Positions 60-30,125 of a DNA stretch of 39,498 bases are shown here, piece after piece. The notes beneath the pieces were generated by a model. The model made no database searches. It was not told where the DNA came from and was given only the letters and a program-made list of their open reading frames with translations. The translations under genes and the position numbers were made by a program. The stretch spans positions 1-39,498 of the forward strand of contig PABA01000014.1 in NCBI GenBank assembly GCA_002699025.1. Reading direction: 5' to 3'. This DNA comes from Sandaracinus sp. GTDB taxonomy: Bacteria > Myxococcota_A > Polyangia > Polyangiales > Houyiibacteriaceae. Every line of letters begins with the position of its first letter. Within the stretch, counting starts at the first letter, position 1.

Positions 60-245
60 ACCCCTCGCTGCTCTCCGCGAACGCGGCCGGTCCGCCCGCC
101 GGCTGGCTGCCCCCGGCGGAGAGCGGACGGCGGAGAGCGGACGGCCGCGCGAGCGAAGCGAGCGCTCCCACGTGCCCGAGTTCCCCGTCCCCCCAGCGAG
201 CGAAGCGAGCGCTCCGAGAAGCGAGCGAAGCGAGCGCCCCAGCCG
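60..245. repeat. single degenerate copy of the modular intergenic repeat
   Basis: This stretch carries the three modules of the window's main repeat family in order. First comes a palindrome-like CTCCGCGAACGCGGCCGG near 76-93. Next are heptameric GCGGAGA/GCGGACG units (about 117-150). Last come several GCGAGCGAAGCGAGCG-type palindromes (about 155-240). The same order is seen at 2480-2600, 3266-4469 and 29525-30125. I see no gene here; the short open frame across it is repeat translation. Confidence 0.6.
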
Positions 246-2406: not shown

Positions 2407-2479
2407 GGCGAGGGGTTAGGGCGGCGGGGGAGGGGGAGCAAGCGGGAGCCTCCCGGCGTTCGTGGGGCCTCGGCGAGCG

Positions 2480-2605
2480 CCGCGAGGGACCCCGCGCCAC
2501 GAACGCGGCCGCCGCGCCGCCCGACGGACAGCGGCGCCGGACAGCGGCGACGGAGAGCGGGCGGCGGAGAGCGGCGGGCGGCGCGAGCGGCCGCGAGCTC
2601 GGGAG
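2480..2605. repeat. degenerate copy of the modular intergenic repeat between divergent genes
   Basis: The gap 2407-2641 between the divergent methyltransferase and TetR genes is mostly one imperfect copy of the repeat family. CGCGAACGCGGCCGCC-like sequence is followed by GGACAGCGGC, GGAGAGCGGGC heptamer-like units and a GCGCGAGCGGCCGCGAGC end. The order matches the copies at 60-245 and in the 3.3-4.5 kb array. Confidence 0.55.
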
Positions 2606-2633
2606 TCGACAGGGGAGGGGCTTCCGGTAGGCT
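2606..2633 (+). promoter_or_regulatory. candidate promoter of the TetR gene (near-leaderless)
   Basis: TCGACA (2606-2611, one mismatch to TTGACA) and TAGGCT (2628-2633) are spaced 16 bp. The expected transcription start falls within a few bases of the ATG at 2642. There is no convincing ribosome-binding site, so a leaderless mRNA is likely. This is assigned by eye only. Confidence 0.4.
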
Positions 2634-2641
2634 CGGGCGGG

Positions 2642-3265
2642 ATGGAGACCGACCGCGCCGCGAAGCCCGTCGCCTCGAGCAGCAGCCGGCCGCCGCGAGG
2701 CCGCGACAAGCGAAGGGCGCTCGTCTCGGCGGCGCGGGACGCGCTCTACGAGCTCGGCCTGAAGAAGACGACGCTGGCGGAGGTCGCGCGGCGGGCCGAG
2801 GTGCCGCTCGGCAACGTCTACTACTACTACAAGAGCAAGGGCGCGCTGATCGGCGCCGTCATCGAGGCGCGGCGCGGGGAGCTCGAGGCGGAGCTCGAGG
2901 CATGCGCCGGGGCCGGGGCGCCGCGGGAGCAGCTCTGCGCTTTCCTGACGGCGCAAGCGCGCGGGGCGGAGACCAAGGCGCGCCTCGGCTGCCCGCTGGC
3001 GACGCTCGCGCAGGACCTCCGCAAAGGGGAGCACCCGCGCGCGGGGGAGGCGCGGGCGCTCCTCGAGCTGCAGCTCGGCTGGCTCGAGGCGCGCTTCCGG
3101 CGCGAAGACGACGAGGAGCGACGCAGCGGGCGGGCGCGCGAGCTCGCCGAGCAGCTCCTCGCCGCCGTCCACGGCGCCTTCGTGCTCGCGCATGCCTTGG
3201 ACGACCCGAGCGTGGTCCGGCGCCGCATGGGCGCGCTCGAAGGCTGGGTCGTCGCGCGCACCTGA
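2642..3265 (+). CDS. TetR/AcrR-family transcriptional regulator
   Basis: A 207-residue protein with a typical TetR N-terminal helix-turn-helix. RDKRRALVSAARDALYELG leads into TTLAEVARRAEVPLGNVYYYYKSK (about residues 41-64), and the YYYYKSK recognition-helix end is diagnostic. The ligand domain contains GCPLATLAQDL, similar to AcuR/YjdC-type regulators. ATG 2642 is preferred over the longer open frame because the upstream part is only repeat sequence. It is transcribed divergently from the crtT/crtU pair, the classic arrangement for a regulator of the neighbour, but no operator was identified. The 1.2-kb repeat array begins directly at its TGA stop. The ligand is unknown. Confidence 0.88.
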   Translation: METDRAAKPVASSSSRPPRGRDKRRALVSAARDALYELGLKKTTLAEVARRAEVPLGNVYYYYKSKGALIGAVIEARRGELEAELEACAGAGAPREQLCAFLTAQARGAETKARLGCPLATLAQDLRKGEHPRAGEARALLELQLGWLEARFRREDDEERRSGRARELAEQLLAAVHGAFVLAHALDDPSVVRRRMGALEGWVVART

Positions 3266-4469
3266 CGCTCGCTGCCCGCTCGCTGCGCTCGCTGCGCTCG
3301 CTGCGCTCGCTGCTGTCCGCCGTCCGCTTTCCGCTGTCCGTGGCGGCTGTCCAGCGTGGAGGGCGGTGGCCGCGTCCGCGGAGGGGGCGGGCAGTCGCGT
3401 GCTCGCTGCCCGCTCGCTGCGCTCGCTGCTGTCCGCCGTCCGCTTTCCGCTGTCCGTGGCGGCTGTCCAGCGTGGGAGGTGGCGGCCGCATCCGCGGAGG
3501 GGCGGGCAGTCGCGTGCTCGCTGCGCTCGCTGCCCGCTCGCTGCGCTCGCTGCCCGCTCGCTGCGCTCGCAGCTGTCCGCCGTCCGCTTTCCGCTGTCCG
3601 TGGTGGCTGTCCAGCGTGGGGGGCGGCGGCCGCGTCCGCGGAGGGGGCGGGCAGTCGTGGGCTCGCTGTGCTCGCAGCCGTCTGCCGTCCGCTTTCCGCT
3701 GTCCGTGGCGGCTGTCCAGCGTGGGGGGCGGCGGCCGCGTCCGCGGAGGGGCAGTCGCGGCGTTTGCATCGGCTGCCCCCCTGACTCCGCGAAGCGCCGC
3801 GCCGGTCGAAGAACCGCGGCGGACCGCGGACGGCGGACCGCGGAGGGCCGCGACCGAAGGGAGCGCGAGCATCGGCTGCCCCCTGACTCCGCGAAGCGGC
3901 CGCCCCCCGCGCCGGTCGAAGAACCGCGGCGGACAGCGGAAAGCGGAACGCGGACGGCCGCAACCGAAGGGAGCGCGAGCGTTGGCTGCCCCCTGACTCC
4001 GCGTACGCGGCCGCCCCCCGCGCCGGTCGAAGAACCGCGGCGGACAGCGGAGAGCGGACGGCGGACGGCCGCGACCGAAGGGAGCGCGTGCGTCGGCTGC
4101 GCCCTGACTCCGCGTACGCGGCCGCCCACCGCGCCGGTCGAAGAACCGCGGCGGACAGCGGAAAGCGGAAAGCGGACGGCCGCGACCGAAGGGAGCGAGA
4201 GCGTCGGCTGCCCCCGAACTCCGCGAAGCGGCCGCCCACCGCGCCGGTCGAAGAACCGCGGCGGACAGCGGAAAGCGGAACGCGGACGGCCGCGACCGAA
4301 GGGAGCGCGAGCGGACGGCCGCGACCGAAGGGAGCGCGAGCGTCGGCTGCCCCCGAGCTCCGCTTACGCGGCCGCCCACCGCGCCCGTCGAAGAACCGCG
4401 GCGGACAGCGGAAAGCGGAAAGCGGACGGCAGCGAGCGCAGCGAGCGGGCAGCGAGCGGGCAGCGAGCG
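3266..4469. repeat. two opposed tandem arrays filling a convergent gap
   Basis: No gene is present in these 1.2 kb. The left half (3266-3770) has four units starting at about 3316, 3432, 3576 and 3681 with a TCCGCCGTCCGCTTTCCGC core. The right half (3780-4440) has six units of about 110 bp with GGTCGAAGAACCGCGGCGG cores at about 3801, 3911, 4022, 4133, 4243 and 4383. The right half is the other orientation of the same module order: CTCCGCGTACGCGGCCGCC palindrome, GTCGAAGAACCGCGG, GCGGAAA/GCGGACA heptamers, GCGAGCG palindromes. Both ends run exactly to the stop codons of the flanking genes, and the first 22 nt after TGA are the same on both sides. Long open frames across it are artefacts. Confidence 0.9.
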
Positions 4470-6437
4470 TCAGCGAGCGCAGAGGGCGCGGAGGCGGAGG
4501 AGCTCGCCGACGCTCCAGGCCTGGAAGGGCGTGCCGCGCGGGGTGAAGGGCGGGGTGGCGTCGGCGATCTCCGAGACGTGCCCGACGCCGGCCTCGTCGA
4601 GGTGCGCCTCGAGCGGGGCGAGGAAGCGCTCGCGGGCCTCGGCCTTCGCGGCGTCCGTCGACCCGCGCACGCGCAGCCAGGCCTCCACGAAGGGGCCGAG
4701 GAGCCAGCCCCAGGCGATGCCCTGGTGGTAGCTCCCGTCGCGCTGCCGCACGCCGCCCTCGTAGCGCCCGACGAAGTCCGGGTGCGCCGGGTCGAGGCTG
4801 CGCATGCCGAGCGGGGTCCAGAGCTTCTCCTCGGCGAGGTCGACGACCCGCCGCGCCGCGTCATCGTCGAGGAGCGGCCGGGGGAGCCCGCCCACGGCGA
4901 AGAGCATGTTCGGCCGGATGGACGCGTCGCAGCGCCCGGGCTCGTGGTCGGCGTCGATGACGTCGAAGAGCCCGCCGGTCTCCGCGCAGGGGAAGCGCGC
5001 GAGGAAGCTCGTCGCCGCGAGCTCCCGGAGCGCGTGGTACTCGGTGAAGCGCGGCGCCACCACGTCGAGCGCGTTCACCCAGAGCGCCTGGATCTCGACC
5101 GGCTTGCCGATGCGCGGCGTGACGACCCAGTCGCCGACCTTCGCGTCCATCCAGGTGAGCTGCACGCCGGGCTCCCCGCAGGCGACGAGCCCGTCCTCGT
5201 CCACGCGGATGCGGTAGCGCGTGCCGCGCCGGTAGCCCTCGACGATCGCGCGCGCCGCCTGGAGCAGCACGTCGACCTCGCCCTCGCTCGCCGGCGTGCC
5301 GCTCTCGCGCCGCGCGCGCAGGTACTCGCCGACCACGACCACGTACCAGAGCGAGGCGTCGACGCTGTTGTACTCGGGTGTGTCGCCGGCGTCCGGGAAG
5401 CGGTTGGGGAGCATGCCCTCGGAGACGGCGCCGGCCCACTCGCGGAGGATGCGCCCGGCGCGGTCGAGCTGGGGGCCCACCGCCGACTGCGGGGCCAAAC
5501 AGAGGCCGCGGAGCGCGATGAAGGTGTCGCGGCCCCAGTCGCCGAACCACGGGTAGCCGGCGATGACGCTCTCGCCGCGGCCGCGCTGCACGACGTAGGC
5601 CTCGGCGGCGCGGTGGAGCGGGTCGGCGAAGGCGCGGCGGCGCGCGGCCTCCTCGCGGCGGAGCGCGGCGGGGGGCGGGGTCTCGACGCCCTCGGGGGCG
5701 AAGAGGAGCTCGGCGCCTTCCTCGTGCGCGGCGAGGTCGAAGCTCAGCTCGCCGGGGGAGAAGAGGTCCTCGAGGTGGTCGAGGCCGCGCTCGCGCTCGC
5801 GGGCGAGGAGGAAGCGGTGGTACCAGCTCGGCGCGTGCCGGTAGGCGCCGTTGGTGCGCGCGACGACGCCCGGCTCGTGGCCGGGCGAGGCCCAGGCGAT
5901 GGTGGCGGCGGTCGGGTCGAAGCGGACGGCGGCGTCGCGGGGGTGCGCGCCCATGAGCGCGTGGAAGAAGCGGCCGGCGAGGAGCGGGCGGACGAGGAGG
6001 CGGGAGGGGCCCTCGCCTTCCTCGCGGATCCAGCGGAGGACGGAGAGGGGGCGGCCGCGCGGGACGAAGAGCTCCTGGCGGAGGCGCGTGCCGTCGGGGA
6101 GGGCGAAGCGCCAGGTGGGCCAGGGCTCGGGGGCGAAGGCGGCGAGGTGGTCGACGCCGCGCGGGTGGAGGACGTCGTCGGCGTAGCGCTGCGTGCTCAG
6201 GGGGAAGCGGCCGCGGGCGGTCTCGACGAAGGCCTCGAGGCCGGCGACCAGGAGCACGCGCTCGGCGGGGGGCTTCTTCGCGACGAGGAGCAGCCCGTGG
6301 TAGCGGCGCGAGCGCGGGCCGGCGACCGTGCCGCTCGCGAACCCGCCGAGGCCGTCCGCCTCGAGCCACTCGCGCCGCTCTTCCCGCGCGGCGTCCACCC
6401 GATCCCCGTGTGCGTGCGCCCCGTCCGCGTGCTCCAT
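4470..6437 (-). CDS. glycogen debranching enzyme, amylo-alpha-1,6-glucosidase type
   Basis: A 655-residue cytoplasmic enzyme (no signal peptide) that hydrolyses alpha-1,6-linked glucose stubs of glycogen. The N-terminal domain opens with EWLEADGLGGFASGTVAG and RRYHGLLL (about residues 23-52), the hallmark of bacterial/archaeal debranching enzymes of the GDE_N type. The C-terminal (alpha/alpha)6-barrel carries GYPWFGDWGRDTFIALRGL, EYNSVDASLWYV and SYHQGIAWGWLLGPF, conserved in the amylo-1,6-glucosidase family. The length is normal. It lies 36 bp downstream of the glycosyltransferase gene on the same strand, so the two are probably co-transcribed. The ATG at 6437 has no Shine-Dalgarno but has TAGCCT seven bases before it, hinting at its own leaderless transcript. 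Its stop codon abuts the repeat array. Confidence 0.9.
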   Translation of the reverse strand: MEHADGAHAHGDRVDAAREERREWLEADGLGGFASGTVAGPRSRRYHGLLLVAKKPPAERVLLVAGLEAFVETARGRFPLSTQRYADDVLHPRGVDHLAAFAPEPWPTWRFALPDGTRLRQELFVPRGRPLSVLRWIREEGEGPSRLLVRPLLAGRFFHALMGAHPRDAAVRFDPTAATIAWASPGHEPGVVARTNGAYRHAPSWYHRFLLARERERGLDHLEDLFSPGELSFDLAAHEEGAELLFAPEGVETPPPAALRREEAARRRAFADPLHRAAEAYVVQRGRGESVIAGYPWFGDWGRDTFIALRGLCLAPQSAVGPQLDRAGRILREWAGAVSEGMLPNRFPDAGDTPEYNSVDASLWYVVVVGEYLRARRESGTPASEGEVDVLLQAARAIVEGYRRGTRYRIRVDEDGLVACGEPGVQLTWMDAKVGDWVVTPRIGKPVEIQALWVNALDVVAPRFTEYHALRELAATSFLARFPCAETGGLFDVIDADHEPGRCDASIRPNMLFAVGGLPRPLLDDDAARRVVDLAEEKLWTPLGMRSLDPAHPDFVGRYEGGVRQRDGSYHQGIAWGWLLGPFVEAWLRVRGSTDAAKAEARERFLAPLEAHLDEAGVGHVSEIADATPPFTPRGTPFQAWSVGELLRLRALCAR

Positions 6438-6473
6438 GGCGCGAGGCTACCAGGGGACGCGGGCGGCCGTTGC

Positions 6474-7448
6474 TCAGCCCAGGAACTCGGCGATCAGCGC
6501 GCGCCACTGCTCGCGCCAGCGCGCCTCGTGGAACTCGCGCAGGGCTTTCGCGCGGCTGGCGGCGCCCATCTTCTCGGCGAGGCCGTCGTCGCTCAGGAGC
6601 TGCTGGAGCGCCTCGCGGGCCTGGTGGCCGTCGTCGACGACGAAGCCGTTCACGCCGTGCTCGACGTAGCGCTCGATGCCGGGCAGGCGGAAGCTGACGA
6701 GCGGGAGGCCGGTCATCATCGCCTCGATCAGGGTGATCGTGTACTCCTGCTCGCCGTCGTGGAGGTAGACGCGGGCGCGCCGGAGCTCACGCTGCAGGTC
6801 GGCGTACTCGTAGACCTCCTGCTCCGGGTCGAGGTGGTCGACGTGGAGGAAGGGGAGCCCCTCGGTGGCCTCCGGGACCGCCCACCAGTGCCAGCCGCGG
6901 TCCTTCCAGGAGTGGATGATGGAGAGCACGCCGCCCTCGAGCGTGCTCGGCGCGTAGGCGTCCGGGTCGAGGCCGAGGGGCACGTAGGGGACGTCGACGC
7001 CGTAGGTCTCCTTCAGCCAGGCGACCGTGTTCGGGTAGAAGCTGACCACCGTGAAGTCGTCGCGCGCGAGGAGCTCGTCCCACTCGTGGCGCTCGAGCTC
7101 GGCGACCTTGGCGACGCGGTAGAGCTTCGGCAGCTCGCGGCGCTCGCGGAAGAGCTTGAACTGCCAGTTGAACATCAGCCACGCCATGTCGTAGCGCTCG
7201 GGCCAGCCGCTCCGGGCCGGGTCGTCGAGGAGGCGCGCGTAGTCGGCGGGGCCCCAGTCCAGGTGCGCCTCGTCGAAGGCCGGGAGCACGTTGTGGACGT
7301 TCGGCGGCTGGGGGCGCCAGTAGTGGAACTGGTCCCAGTGGCCGAGGAACCAGGTCGGCAGGCCGACGCGGCAGAAGTGGTACTGGACGCCCGGGTGCGT
7401 GGGGACGATCAGGAGCTGGGGGTCGTCGCCGGTGGTGGCCTCGCTCAT
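6474..7448 (-). CDS. GT4-like glycosyltransferase
   Basis: A 324-residue cytosolic GT-B fold glycosyltransferase. The C-terminal nucleotide-sugar half contains GEQEYTITLIEAMMTGLPLV (about residues 231-250) followed by PGIERYVEHGVNGFVVDD, typical of group-1 (GT4) transferases, including the E-x7-E type region. The N-terminal half is more divergent (VPTHPGVQYHFCRVGLPTWFLGHWDQ). It is upstream of and probably co-transcribed with the debranching enzyme, so a role in glycogen, trehalose or another storage or envelope glucan is inferred. The acceptor and donor cannot be read from the sequence. ATG 7448 is chosen because the upstream sequence is repeat. Confidence 0.8.
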   Translation of the reverse strand: MSEATTGDDPQLLIVPTHPGVQYHFCRVGLPTWFLGHWDQFHYWRPQPPNVHNVLPAFDEAHLDWGPADYARLLDDPARSGWPERYDMAWLMFNWQFKLFRERRELPKLYRVAKVAELERHEWDELLARDDFTVVSFYPNTVAWLKETYGVDVPYVPLGLDPDAYAPSTLEGGVLSIIHSWKDRGWHWWAVPEATEGLPFLHVDHLDPEQEVYEYADLQRELRRARVYLHDGEQEYTITLIEAMMTGLPLVSFRLPGIERYVEHGVNGFVVDDGHQAREALQQLLSDDGLAEKMGAASRAKALREFHEARWREQWRALIAEFLG

Positions 7449-10367: not shown

Positions 10368-11564
10368 ATGCTCTCTCGCGCGCTGCCGTCCCTCTGCGCC
10401 CTCGCCCTCTCGGGCTGCTTCTACAACTCCGCCTGGCACCAGCAGGCGGTCTCCGAGCGCCGCGTCGCCGAGAGCGCCACCCCCGAGCGCGTCGAGGTCG
10501 CCACCCGCGCCGAGCGCCGCCGCCGCCCCCTGCGCCTCCGCGCCTACATCAGCCCCCGCTACCGCGGCGAGGTGAGCGGCGCCATGGCGCACGTCGAGGA
10601 CCTCGTCGATCGCGCCTCGGAGCTCACCGAGGAGGCCCTCGGCGCCGGGCTCGTCGTCGCCGAGGTCGTGCGCTGGGAGCTCGACGCGGAGGAGGAGATC
10701 GGCGCGTCCCTCGACCGGCTCCAGGCCCTCGACCCGGCGGAGGACGTCGACCTCGTGGTGGGCTTCGTCGGCTCCCTCGCCATGGTCGAGACGAGCATCG
10801 AGCAGCTCGGCCGGGCGCAGCTCCTCGGCAGGCACATGGTCATGCGCGCGCCGAACGACGCGGTGGAGGGGCGCGCCATCGAGCGGAGCTTCTCGCGCCT
10901 GAGCCGCGAGGAGAAGCTCCGGCTCCGGCGCCGGCGCAAGGACCACCGCGAGCTGGTGGTCTTCCTCCACGAGCTCGGGCACACGCTCGGAGCGATCCAC
11001 GTGCGCGATCCGGGCGCGCTCATGCACGCGCGCTACTCGGAGGACGTGGACACCTTCTCTTCGCCCACGCTGGCGCTGATCCGCGCGACCCTCGAGGAGC
11101 GGGTCGCGCCGCCGGAGGAGCGCGACCCGCAGCGCCTCGCCGAGTCGCTCCGCGCCGTGCTCGAGACGCAGGAGATCGCCTTCCACCCGTCGGACCACGC
11201 GCAGATGCTCGAGGGGCTCGAGGGCTGGGTGGCGGCGATGGCGCAGGCGTCCGCGGCCGAGGCGTCCCGGGCGGCCGAGGCGCCGGCGGCCGCCTCCACC
11301 GCGGCGGAGCCGCCGCCCGCGTCCGCCCTCGCCGGGCTCGACGAGGAGGAGGCGCGGCGCTTCCGGGCGGCGAAGGCGCTCGCGGACGGCGGGGACGTGC
11401 GTGGCGCCTGGGACGCGCTCGCGCCCCTCGTCGAGGCGCGGACCGATCACTACGCGGTCCAGGAGCTCGCCTGCGAGCTGACCATGAGCGGGCTCCGCGC
11501 CCACCCGGCGCGCGAGGCGTGCCAGCGCATGGTCGAGCTCGCCACGCAGCCTTCGGGCTCGTGA
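10368..11564 (+). CDS. lipoprotein with metzincin-like HEXXHXXGXXH zinc site
   Basis: A 398-residue predicted lipoprotein with signal MLSRALPSLCALALSGC and mature Cys17. The zinc motif HELGHTLGAIH (201-211) has three His ligands and a catalytic Glu202. It is followed by a Met-turn-like ALMHA (Met219), as in metzincin metalloproteases (archaemetzincin/M10-like). The C-terminal part after about 300 is A/E-rich, then helical and TPR-like (AKALADGGDVRGAWDALAPL). It probably acts on envelope-exposed or external protein; the substrate is unknown. The upstream 32-bp array separates it from the transglutaminase fusion. The next gene starts 120 bp after its stop and may be co-transcribed. Confidence 0.8.
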   Translation: MLSRALPSLCALALSGCFYNSAWHQQAVSERRVAESATPERVEVATRAERRRRPLRLRAYISPRYRGEVSGAMAHVEDLVDRASELTEEALGAGLVVAEVVRWELDAEEEIGASLDRLQALDPAEDVDLVVGFVGSLAMVETSIEQLGRAQLLGRHMVMRAPNDAVEGRAIERSFSRLSREEKLRLRRRRKDHRELVVFLHELGHTLGAIHVRDPGALMHARYSEDVDTFSSPTLALIRATLEERVAPPEERDPQRLAESLRAVLETQEIAFHPSDHAQMLEGLEGWVAAMAQASAAEASRAAEAPAAASTAAEPPPASALAGLDEEEARRFRAAKALADGGDVRGAWDALAPLVEARTDHYAVQELACELTMSGLRAHPAREACQRMVELATQPSGS

Positions 11565-18557: not shown

Positions 18558-18940
18558 GGCGAGGGTTCTGCCAGCCGAGTGTGAAGCGCATCTGAAGCGG
18601 CCGAAAGACGCGCGCGACTCGAAGCGACGGGCGGGCGGCGGCGCGGCTCGAAGCGATGCGCTCGCGGCGGCGCGGCTCGAAGTGATGGGGGGCGGCGCGG
18701 CTCGAAGCGATGCGGACGCGATCCGCGGGCGAGCGTCGACGGGTACCTCCGAAGCGATGCGTGAGCGGCGCGCGACTCGAGACCGCGCGCGGGGAGGACG
18801 CGTCGAGGCGATGCGCGAGCGGAGGCGCGGCTCGAGGACGCCCGCGACCCGCCTGCGCCGACGGCGGAGGCGACGCCGCCGCGCGCCCCCTTCGCTTCGA
18901 CCCGAGCGAATACCGGGCGCCGCGCGCCGTCGCAGAAGAC
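18558..18940. repeat. gene-free gap with CGCGGCTCGAAGCGATG repeats
   Basis: Between the divergent esterase and beta-propeller genes, CGCG(G/A)CTCGAAGCGA(T/C)G-like units recur at about 18611, 18642, 18671 and 18697. Degenerate versions continue to about 18835, often as GGCGATGCGNGAGCGG. No promoter could be assigned with confidence; GAATACC at 18908-18914 is the most A/T-rich word upstream of the 18941 start. Confidence 0.6.
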
Positions 18941-20227
18941 ATGCTTCGTTCCCTCGCGCTCGCCTTCGCGCTCTCGCTCGGCACCTCCTTCGCCGCCGCC
19001 CAGTCGATCACGAGCTTCGGCCCCGGCGACGAGCTCACCTTCGTCCGCGACGTCGTGCCCGCGCCGGGCGGCGGGCTCTACGTCGCCGGCCGCACGCTCG
19101 GCCGCTTCACCCCCGGCGAGACGACCGGCCTGCCCGGCGACGCCTTCGTCGTCCGCCTCGACGCGGCGGGCCAGATCGTCTGGGCGCGCCAGTGGGGCGA
19201 CCGGCGCCACCAGGCCGCGACCGCGCTCGCGCTCGACGGCGACGAGCTCCTGGTGGCCGTCGCGGAGAACGGGAACGGCGATCGGCTCTTCCGGGGCGTG
19301 CCCGCCTACGGCACGGCCATACTGCGCCTCGGCTCCGACGGCAGCGAGCGCGGCCACTTCCCCGTCGACGCGCTCGTCCACGACATCGCCCTCGGCTCCG
19401 GGGGACGCGTCGCCGTCTGCGGGCGGAAGGTCGAGCTCCAGCGCGGCACCGTCGACTTCCACCTCGCCGTCCACGAGCGCGACGGACGGCGCCGCTGGCT
19501 CCACACCGAGCGCTCGCGCCGCAGCGACGAGTCCTGCCGCGCCGTCGCCTGGCGGGGCGAGCGCGTGGTCGCCAGCGGCTGGGTGAGCGCCCCCCGCGGC
19601 GAGGTCCCGCGCACGCGCCTCACCCGCGCCGCCTCGGTGCACGACGACGCCCAGCTCGGCGTCGAGCCCATGTCGCGCCCCATGCTCACGGCCGCCTTCG
19701 ACGCGCGCCGCGGCCGCCGCCTCTGGGCGCGGGTCTGGCGCGGCGGGGACCACCGGCCGCATGGCCTCGACGTCGGCGCCGACGGCACCGTCTGGGTCGC
19801 CGCGCAGGTCGATCGCACCTGGACCGCGCCCAACCGCTGGAACGCCTCGCTCGTCGCCTACGGCCCGGACGGCCGCCACCTCCACACGACGCACCGCGAG
19901 GTCGGCGACCAGGCGCGTGGCTTCGACGCCGTCCAGGCGCGCGACGACGGGGCCCTCTGGATGATCAGCCCGCGCTTCGGCTACATGAACCCGCGCCAGA
20001 CCGCGCTCGGCATCCCGGCGGCGAACCGCATCGGCCTGATCGCCGTCTCGCGCGACGGCCGCGCGCGCCTCGTCGGCGAGAGCGAAGCGTTCCGGCGGGC
20101 CGGTGGCTTCGCGCTGGTCGGTGGCCAGGCCCAGCTCGTGGGCGTCGGTTGCGTCGGCCAGCGTTGCAGCGCCCTGGTCGAGCGCTGGCCCCTCGCCACC
20201 GCCGCGGAGCCCACCGCGAAGGAGTGA
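18941..20227 (+). CDS. secreted beta-propeller-like protein, unknown function
   Basis: A 428-residue exported protein. The signal peptide LRSLALAFALSLGTSFAAA is followed by QSITSF. The mature part repeats blade-like units with VPAPGGGLYVAGRTLG, FVVRLDAAGQIVWARQWG, AILRLGSDG, DIALGSGGRVAVCGR, AFDARRGRRLWARVW and DVGADGTVWVAA. This is the 'quantity, value, D-x-x-G, W/L' rhythm of PQQ/SBBP-type beta-propellers. There is no anchor, so it is probably periplasmic or secreted. ATG 18941 is chosen by the signal peptide; the longer frame runs through upstream repeats. An 18-bp tandem repeat follows its stop. Confidence 0.7.
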   Translation: MLRSLALAFALSLGTSFAAAQSITSFGPGDELTFVRDVVPAPGGGLYVAGRTLGRFTPGETTGLPGDAFVVRLDAAGQIVWARQWGDRRHQAATALALDGDELLVAVAENGNGDRLFRGVPAYGTAILRLGSDGSERGHFPVDALVHDIALGSGGRVAVCGRKVELQRGTVDFHLAVHERDGRRRWLHTERSRRSDESCRAVAWRGERVVASGWVSAPRGEVPRTRLTRAASVHDDAQLGVEPMSRPMLTAAFDARRGRRLWARVWRGGDHRPHGLDVGADGTVWVAAQVDRTWTAPNRWNASLVAYGPDGRHLHTTHREVGDQARGFDAVQARDDGALWMISPRFGYMNPRQTALGIPAANRIGLIAVSRDGRARLVGESEAFRRAGGFALVGGQAQLVGVGCVGQRCSALVERWPLATAAEPTAKE

Positions 20228-20263
20228 CGCGCCGCTTGGAGCGCGCGCCTGCAGCGCGCGGCT

Positions 20264-20389
20264 GCAGCGCCCGAGTGGACTGCAGCGCCCGAGTGGACGG
20301 CCGCGCCCGAGTGGACTGCAGCGCCCGAGTGGACGGCCGCGCCCGAGTGGACCGCAGCGCCCGAGTGGACTGCAGCGCCCGACCGGACG
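20264..20389. repeat. 18-bp tandem repeat, seven copies
   Basis: Seven contiguous 18-bp units alternate GCAGCGCCCGAGTGGACT and GCCGCGCCCGAGTGGACG types (last copy CGACCGG). They lie between the convergent beta-propeller gene and the coiled-coil gene. Alternation of two variants suggests expansion of a 36-bp dimer. It is in frame as a six-residue repeat but lies outside any credible gene. Confidence 0.85.
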
Positions 20390-20406
20390 GCGGGCGCTGC
20401 GCACCC

Positions 20407-27279: not shown

Positions 27280-29478
27280 CTACTCGGTCACACGGGCGAC
27301 GAAGGTCCAGTCGATCTCCTCGAGCTGGTCGAAGAGCACCAGCTCGTTCCCCACGCGGACCCAGCCGGTGCCCTCGGCGCGGACGGCCTCGGCGACGGCG
27401 GGCTCGACGCGGCGGCTCTCGACGGTGGCGTCGCCGTGGAGGCTCACGCCGAGCTCCTCGCTCTGCTCGCTCGTGTCGACGATCTCGCGGAGGTCGCCGT
27501 CGAGCAACGCCGTCCGGCGCCAGCCCGGGAGGTCGTCCATGCGCATCAGCGCGGCGAGGTCGTCGAGCGCCATGTCGGCGCCGGCGACGCCCTGGAGCGC
27601 GCCCTCGGCGTCGCGGATCGCGCGGTTGCAGGGCACGAGGATCGCGCTCCCGCTCGCGTCCGGGTAGGGCGGCCCGAAGCGCGGCCCGTGCGTCTCCCGG
27701 TTGGCCACGTACCAGGGGCGCCGGCGCGGGTCGTAGGCGGTCGGGAAGGGGAGGTAGCCCGGGTAGTTCACGAGCAGGCCGTCCTCGAAGCCGGCGTAGG
27801 TCACGTGGAGCGGCGTCTGCCCCTCCCAGAGGAGCGCGTCCCGTTCGCCGGTCGGCAGGTGCGGCGCGCCGGCGTCGAAGCTCGCGAGGAGCACGTCGCG
27901 GAAGACGTCGCTCATGGGGCCGAGCGCGGCGAGGGTGGCGCGGGGGCCGGCCTCGTCCTCGCCCGGGGGCCAGAGGTAGCCCGTGTCGACGAAGCTCACG
28001 TCCATGCCGTAGCGCGCGTGCGGGCGCGCGTGCTCGAGGGCTGGGCCGCGCTCGGCGAGCCAGCCCACGGGCGCGTAGCCGGGCGGCAGGGGCGGCGCCG
28101 CGTCCCGGTCTCCGCTGGCGCGCGCGAGCCGCTCCTCCACGCGCGCGCCGAGCCCCTCCACGAGGGCCTTCACGCGGGCGAGCCGCTGGTCGAGGGCCTG
28201 GCTCCGGCGCACGACGGCGCCGCTCATGGCGCTGAGGCGCTCCGACTGCGCGGCGGCCTCGCGCTGCGCCTCCACCGTGCTCCAGAGGCTCGCCGCGACG
28301 GCGCCGGCGAGGAGCGTGAGCAGGGCGAAGACGACGGCGAGCGTCACGCCCGGGCGCCGGCTGAGGCGCCGCCAGAGGCGCCGCGCGAGCGAGTCGCGGC
28401 GCACGGAGAGCTCCTCGCCGCGGAGCCAGCGCCGGAGCTCGTCCGCGAAGGCGTCGACGCTCGGGTAGCGCGCCTCCGGTCGCGGCTGCGTCGCGCGCTC
28501 GACGATGGCGACGAGCCCCGGGTCCGGCTGGCCGCCGCCCACGACCTCCTCCATCGGCTCGCGCTCGCCGGTCACGGCCTTGCCGAGCCGGGCCACGTGC
28601 GGGCCCATGCGCGGCGGGCGGAGCGTGACGAGCTCCTGGAGCATCATGCCGAGGGCGAACTGGTCCGACGCCGGGCCATGCTCCTCGATGCGCCCCATGG
28701 CCTGCTCGGGCGGCATGTAGCTCGCCGTGCCGATCACGTCGCCGGCCTGCGTCTCCGTGCTCGCGTGGACGCTGATCGAGCCGGACTCGGTGACGCCCTC
28801 GCGCTCGGGGAGGCCGCCCTCGTCGGGCGCGGAGACGACGTCCGGGCGGCCGAGGACCTTCGCCACGCCCCAGTCGACGACGTAGACCTCGTGGTGCTCG
28901 CCGAGGAGGACGTTCTCCGGCTTGAGGTCGCGGTGGACGACGCCGCGGGCGTGCGCGTAGGTGATGGCGTTGCAGACGTCGAGGAAGCGCTCGAGGCGCG
29001 ACTCGAGGGCGTGCTCGTCGTCGAGGCGCCCCTCGCGGGCCTGCGTCGCGCAGTCGGCGAGGTAGCGGTGGAAGGTCCGTCCGCCGAGGAGCCGCATGGC
29101 GAAGGCGGGGGCGCCGCTCTCCACCTCGAGGCCGTAGACGGGGACGATGTTCGGGTGCTCGAGCTGGGCGCCGACCTGGGCCTCGAGGAGGAAGCGCTGG
29201 AGCGCGGCGCTGCGCTCGCGGAGCTCGCGGGCGAGGACCTTCACGGCGACCAGGCGGCCGAGCTGCTTGTCGCGGGCGGCGAGGACGCGGCCCATGCCGC
29301 CGCGGCCGATCTGCTCGGTCACCTCGTAGGCGTCGCCGAGGCCGCGGCCGACGTCGCCGTCCCAGCTCTCGTCGACGTCGCGGAGCTCGAGCTGCGTCTT
29401 CCTCTCGCCGCCCTTCGGGGCAGCGTCCGCCTCGGTGAGCAGGGTCGGCGCGACGCCGAGATCGTCGGGTGAGGCCAT
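27280..29478 (-). CDS. transmembrane Ser/Thr protein kinase with C-terminal Cache sensor
   Basis: A 732-residue receptor-like kinase. The kinase domain (51-350) has the Gly loop IGRGGMGRV (57-65), Lys80 (VAVKVL), HRDLKPEN (182-189, catalytic Asp184), D-W-G (202-204) in place of D-F-G, and GTASYMPPEQA for the substrate loop. After a basic stretch comes one TM helix (378-398). The C-terminal extracytoplasmic part has a coiled segment (402-455) and a dCache/PDC-like sensor with YDPRRRPWY (582-590), PYPDASGSAILVPC and a second lobe to the end. It probably senses a small molecule outside and signals by phosphorylation. ATG 29478 is chosen because the upstream frame is repeat. Five repeat units lie directly upstream. 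Confidence 0.92.
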   Translation of the reverse strand: MASPDDLGVAPTLLTEADAAPKGGERKTQLELRDVDESWDGDVGRGLGDAYEVTEQIGRGGMGRVLAARDKQLGRLVAVKVLARELRERSAALQRFLLEAQVGAQLEHPNIVPVYGLEVESGAPAFAMRLLGGRTFHRYLADCATQAREGRLDDEHALESRLERFLDVCNAITYAHARGVVHRDLKPENVLLGEHHEVYVVDWGVAKVLGRPDVVSAPDEGGLPEREGVTESGSISVHASTETQAGDVIGTASYMPPEQAMGRIEEHGPASDQFALGMMLQELVTLRPPRMGPHVARLGKAVTGEREPMEEVVGGGQPDPGLVAIVERATQPRPEARYPSVDAFADELRRWLRGEELSVRRDSLARRLWRRLSRRPGVTLAVVFALLTLLAGAVAASLWSTVEAQREAAAQSERLSAMSGAVVRRSQALDQRLARVKALVEGLGARVEERLARASGDRDAAPPLPPGYAPVGWLAERGPALEHARPHARYGMDVSFVDTGYLWPPGEDEAGPRATLAALGPMSDVFRDVLLASFDAGAPHLPTGERDALLWEGQTPLHVTYAGFEDGLLVNYPGYLPFPTAYDPRRRPWYVANRETHGPRFGPPYPDASGSAILVPCNRAIRDAEGALQGVAGADMALDDLAALMRMDDLPGWRRTALLDGDLREIVDTSEQSEELGVSLHGDATVESRRVEPAVAEAVRAEGTGWVRVGNELVLFDQLEEIDWTFVARVTE

Positions 29479-29524: not shown

Positions 29525-30125
29525 GCTCCTTGCGCTCGCGCTGCGCGCTCGCGGCCGTCCGCTGTCCGCTGTCCGCTTTCCGCCGCGGCTGTTCGGCGGG
29601 AGGCGGGGCGGTGCCGCGTACGCGGAGGGAGGGGGCGGACGTGCTCGCTTGCGCTCGCGCTGCGCGCTCGCGGCTGTCCGCTTTCCGCTTTCCGCTTTCC
29701 GTCGCGGCTGTTCGGCTGGAGGCGGGGCGGTGCCGCGTGCGCGGAGGGAGGGGGCGGACGTGCTCGCGCTCGCGCTCGCGCTGCGCGCTCGCGGCTTTCC
29801 GCTTTCCGCTGTCCGCTTTCCGTCGCGGCTGTTCGGCTGGAGGCGGGGCGGTGCCGCGTACGCGGAGGGAGGGGCGGACGTGCTCGCGCTCGCGCTCGCG
29901 CTGGGCGCTCGCGGCCGTCCGCTTTCCGCTGTCCGCTTTCCGCCGCGGCTGTTCGGCTGGAGGCGGGGCGGTGCCGCGTACGCGGAGGGAGGGGGCGGAC
30001 GTGCTCGCGCTCGCGCTGCGCGCTCGCGGCTTTCCGCTTTCCGCTTTCCGCTTTCCGTCGCGGCTGTTCGGCTGGAGGCGGGGCGGTGCCGCGTACGCGG
30101 AGGGAGGGGGCAGGCGTGTCCCTGC
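29525..30125. repeat. second large array of the modular intergenic repeat (about 118-bp units)
   Basis: Five units of about 110-120 bp occupy the gap between the kinase start and the hydrolase stop. Each has TCCGCTT/TCCGCTG heptamers, a (C/T)CGCGGCTGTTCGGCTGGAGG segment, GGGGCGGTGCCGC, CGCGTACGCGG (one copy CGCGTGCGCGG), AGGGAGGGGGCGGACGTG, and GCTCGCGCTCGCGCTGCGC. A degenerate last copy fades at about 30160. The module order equals that of the 3266-4469 array. Around 30176-30196 is a GTGCACGTGCACGTGCACGT run. No coding frame is credible in 29479-30252. Confidence 0.88.

Follow-up and report, generated by a model that had tools for sequence, protein, structure and literature searches.

Intergenic repeats described at gene boundaries

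REP/BIME elements are dispersed, intergenic and present in many copies, many of them near stop codons, and the same holds for the repeat family reported here. According to one report that cites earlier work, REPs located within 15 nt of a stop codon lower translation (PMC12306157). REP/BIMEs are built from alternating palindromes, whereas the present units are repeated in tandem on the same strand; their dyad is short and their folding does not exceed that of dinucleotide shuffles, which gives no sign of a stable palindromic hairpin. A RAYT-driven REP system was rejected for lack of the Y1 transposase (PF01797), which had 0 matches in the genome carrying the repeats (95.9% complete) and was detected in 5 of 14 control genomes.

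MIRUs (mycobacterial interspersed repetitive units) measure about 40-100 bp. The units of the present family, of about 95-110 bp, are likewise tandem and intergenic and, set beside MIRUs by description, both are apparently mobile minisatellites of similar size found at gene boundaries. A published description has MIRUs inserting at start codons together with a coupled ORF (PMC12548453); in this comparison by description, the present repeat differs in being non-coding and anchored on stops. The TAACTGA heptamer repeats of Beggiatoaceae are abundant intergenic direct heptamers located just upstream of start codons in several phyla (PMC4679880). Both families contain direct heptamers in intergenic DNA, placed preferentially with respect to genes, but the TAACTGA repeats have another sequence, a start-side location, a distribution over several phyla and no described 100-nt unit. 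A search of the literature on myxobacterial intergenic repeats returned nothing relevant.

Two facing arrays between convergent genes

The window, i.e. the whole stretch of 39,498 nt that was analysed, is contig 25 of a draft Sandaracinus sp. genome of 9.24 Mb in 238 contigs. The following features were delimited in it:

70..164, - strand: single unit of the repeat family
2462..3265, + strand: TetR-family regulator gene (Pfam TetR_N; the start may be 2642)
3266..3294, + strand: module A lead-in, immediately after the TetR stop (CGCTCGCTG/CCCGCTCGCTG repeats)
3295..3751, + strand: four sense units after the TetR gene
3752..3777, no strand: junction between the facing arrays
3778..4447, - strand: six units, sense relative to the debranching-enzyme gene upstream of them
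4448..4469, - strand: module A lead-in, immediately after the debranching-enzyme stop
4470..6437, - strand: glycogen debranching enzyme gene (GDE_N, GDE_C)
29540..30109, + strand: second array of the repeat family, five units

The TetR gene stops at TGA 3263-3265 (+), followed by CGCTCGCTGCCCGCTCGCTGCg, and the debranching-enzyme gene at TGA 4470-4472 (-), followed by CGCTCGCTGCCCGCTCGCTGCc. The first-pass annotation had reported 22 identical nucleotides after both stops; the identity is real but extends over 21 nt, one fewer than claimed. The shared stretch is a low-complexity tandem of CGCTCGCTG/CCCGCTCGCTG (9/11-mers), and different versions of module A open other arrays. Alignment of the units bore out that the same modules follow in the same outward order on both sides. 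The 1.2-kb gap indeed consists of two facing arrays meeting near 3775, the + units ending at 3751 and the - units beginning at 3778. A repeat search of the window retrieved a perfect inverted pair of 30 nt (3266-3295 / 4429-4458) and another of 82 nt at 84% identity (3401-3482 / 4376-4457). A simple inversion of one array, which had been suggested as the alternative origin, is unlikely since module A and the spacer are not the same in the inner units of the left side as in those of the right.

The debranching enzyme is not truncated by the array, as its alignment to a 55% identical family homologue reaches residue 654/655. The use of relatives as empty sites was discarded because the homologues are too distant (GDE 55% at best). 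The array at 29540..30109 is directed away not from a stop but from a start, that of the gene at 27280 (-).

Unit architecture, copy number and taxonomic range

The unit measures ~95-110 nt and comprises, from 5' to 3', module A, four TCCGC 5-mers, a variable spacer and GCCGCGTTCGCGGAG; tandem units succeed one another with a start-to-start distance of 105-144. In the aligned units, module A is of low complexity and occurs in several versions (CGCTCGCTGCGCTC..., CCTCCCTTCGGTCGGGATGC, CGCTCCCTTCGGTCGCGAGGCG). The heptad block reads GC-NN-TCCGC-NN-TCCGC-NN-TCCGC-NN-TCCG with a 7-nt spacing. The spacer of ~40 nt is variable and falls into two subfamilies, and GCCGCGTTCGCGGAG is a dyad containing an inverted GCGGA. 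TCCGC is almost invariant whereas the NN pairs in between and the ~40-nt spacer vary. This constancy is partly a matter of ascertainment, since the units were found by profile and the positional and composition analyses were anchored on two heptads; the fairer contrast is that of NN with TCCGC inside the same block. The TCCGC heptads and the GCCGCGTTCGCGGAG dyad were kept while the spacer diverged.

At the RNA level, the mean folding z was -0.1 and -1.3 (sense) in the two subfamilies, with similar values on the other strand. Covariation was sought in the aligned units and found on neither strand. No intrinsic terminator (G+C hairpin followed by a U-tract) was detected within 3266-4469 and Rfam families gave 0 matches in the window at the gathering score.

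The heptad pattern TCCGCYNTCCGCYNTCCG has 626 matches in the genome of origin against 0 for a reversed control pattern, which places the family beyond chance. In total, 236 units were counted in 2.54 Mb of this genome. A first set of 1.47 Mb (74% G+C), sampled mostly around matches, held 202 units in 80 arrays; a second set of 1.07 Mb, in which most stretches were contig starts selected blind and a few had been included for their known matches, held 34 units in 16 arrays. From the unit counts in the two sets, the genome is estimated to contain ~300-400 units. Many contigs start in or near an array (C7, C60, C158, C172, C176, C193, C204, C233); the assembly thus probably breaks on the repeat, and the copy number may be underestimated.

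Among 114 relatives of the same family and order, seven showed 1-3 matches to TCCGCYNTCCGCYNTCCG and the rest 0. Of 377 genomes sampled across the phylum, those with at least 6 matches (e.g. G196, G386, G293) show, among the matches listed, mostly head-to-tail simple heptamer runs. About 490 genomes were searched, and the repeat is restricted to a single species among them. It is lineage-restricted, non-coding, interspersed and amplified in tandem.

Orientation and position relative to genes

Genes were called with a purpose-written simple codon-model caller rather than a standard one, and starts are less certain than stops. In all 19 intergenic regions containing both orientations (17 in the first set and 2 in the second), the arrays face inward (-> <-). 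Where arrays of a single orientation adjoin a stop, the 5' (module A) end is the one nearer the stop in 28/32 cases (p=2e-5), at a median distance of 11-14 nt. This rule was followed by 5/6 arrays in the second set alone, a set too small by itself for confirmation. Beside starts, the 5' end was nearer the start in 11/16 one-orientation arrays, which is not significant (p=0.21); an 'edge-in' rule at starts was not replicated, with 11/13 in the first set and 0/3 in the second. A general strand skew after stops was rejected as the source of the orientation, spacers without units showing no skew.

Among spacers of at least 60 nt, units were present in 13% where genes converge, in 5% where they are codirectional and in 3% where they diverge, the discovery part being sampled around matches. 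The proposal that the element is attached to gene ends holds in part: support is strong at stops and the facing arrays agree with it, but an exclusive attachment to 3' ends is unsupported since codirectional gaps contain equal numbers of antisense and sense arrays (10 of each) and some arrays also lie in divergent gaps. As a separate observation, TAG is commoner at stops next to arrays (14/39) than at the remaining stops whose spacer is at least 60 nt (97/532; p=0.011).

Possible function and origin

Rho-utilisation (rut) tracts need an A-poor, C/T-rich RNA composition. The repeat resembles Rho-dependent terminators in composition only, with a C-rich, A-poor tract after the stop codon: the 76 nt following unit-bearing stops contain 3.4% A, 42% C and 20% T (C/G 1.24), against 10.8% A, 39% C and 12% T (C/G 1.04) after other stops. 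As to function, the repeat is best read, with modest confidence, as a rut-like 3'-end sequence. The unit would be read in sense by the polymerase leaving the gene. Module A and the heptads, which form the A-poor, C/U-rich first half of the unit, would serve as a Rho-utilisation tract, located in RNA free of ribosomes immediately beyond the stop, and the G-rich dyad GCCGCGTTCGCGGAG downstream as a pause site. Facing arrays would prevent read-through into the convergent gene opposite, and tandem copies may have arisen by slippage or unequal recombination. Arguing for this reading are the inward facing (19/19), the stop anchoring (28/32), the A-poor, C/T-rich flanks, the enrichment in convergent spacers, the constancy of TCCGC and the intact debranching enzyme; arguing against it are the parity of antisense and sense arrays, the absence from relatives and the lack of any structure signal. 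The element is not required, given that ~87% of convergent spacers carry no units.

About as probable, and equally tentative, is a selfish interspersed repeat that inserts preferentially at gene edges and would grow in tandem and persist where harmless without any host function. The narrow range (one species), the many spacers devoid of units, the antisense arrays as frequent as sense ones in codirectional gaps and the plentiful unrelated intergenic repeats elsewhere in the genome are consistent with such an origin. However, strict inward facing and stop anchoring would need a directional insertion mechanism, no Y1 transposase was found in the genome, and the constraint on heptads and dyad suggests that something recognises them. 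If strict inward facing and stop anchoring are functional, a 74% G+C genome would have taken up a repeat family for use as modular 3' boundaries; otherwise, an insertion mechanism sensitive to gene direction would be indicated.

Recognition by a DNA- or RNA-binding protein, with heptads comparable to the Beggiatoaceae TAACTGA repeats, is unlikely: the exact 7-nt spacing of TCCGC with free NN and the inverted GCGGA of the dyad would suit a binding site, but this spacing is out of step with the DNA helical turn and no candidate protein was identified. There is also little probability that the family insulates genes in a species-specific manner, as a directional unit recognised when the polymerase leaves the gene and installed outward at gene boundaries by a direction-aware insertion mechanism. 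A MITE-like inverted pair (-> <-) inserted in short spacers, whose arms then grew in tandem or of which one was lost, would account for the orientation in the 19 two-orientation regions and for outer tips often lying near both genes. It is nonetheless improbable, and insertion with loss of one arm was rejected, being weakened by the spacers flanking one-orientation arrays, where weak copies are on the same strand (12 matches) and traces of a facing arm are few (2 matches). Finally, an RNA hairpin terminator, 3' stability or mRNA-folding element, as suggested by the first-pass annotation and by the dyad GCCGCGTTCGCGGAG and its location after stops, is very improbable, since the units are no more stably folded than their dinucleotide shuffles and show no covariation, and no terminator-like site with a U-tract lies within 3266-4469.

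Other repeats in the same genome

On contig C111, two + arrays flank ~1.6 kb (5061-6673) containing an Rhs-like C-terminal fragment and a 387-aa ORF. An autonomous transposon between these arrays was rejected, the ORFs including the Rhs-like tail and no transposase being recognised by eye. In the window, the gene at 18710-20227 is followed, directly after its stop, by a different repeat, an 18-mer array (CTGCAGCGCCCGAGTGGA) at 20228-20405. A further dispersed motif, consisting of TTACCAGCGGGCCC and then a variable hairpin, occurs close after stop codons (C8:55827, C111:992, C5:94184). Long intergenic arrays of hexamer type (GCTCGG/GCTGGC) were seen in several places on contig C61, e.g. at 11006-11309 and 67289-67639. 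Tandem repeats of all kinds make up 11-17% of the non-coding DNA on six contigs.
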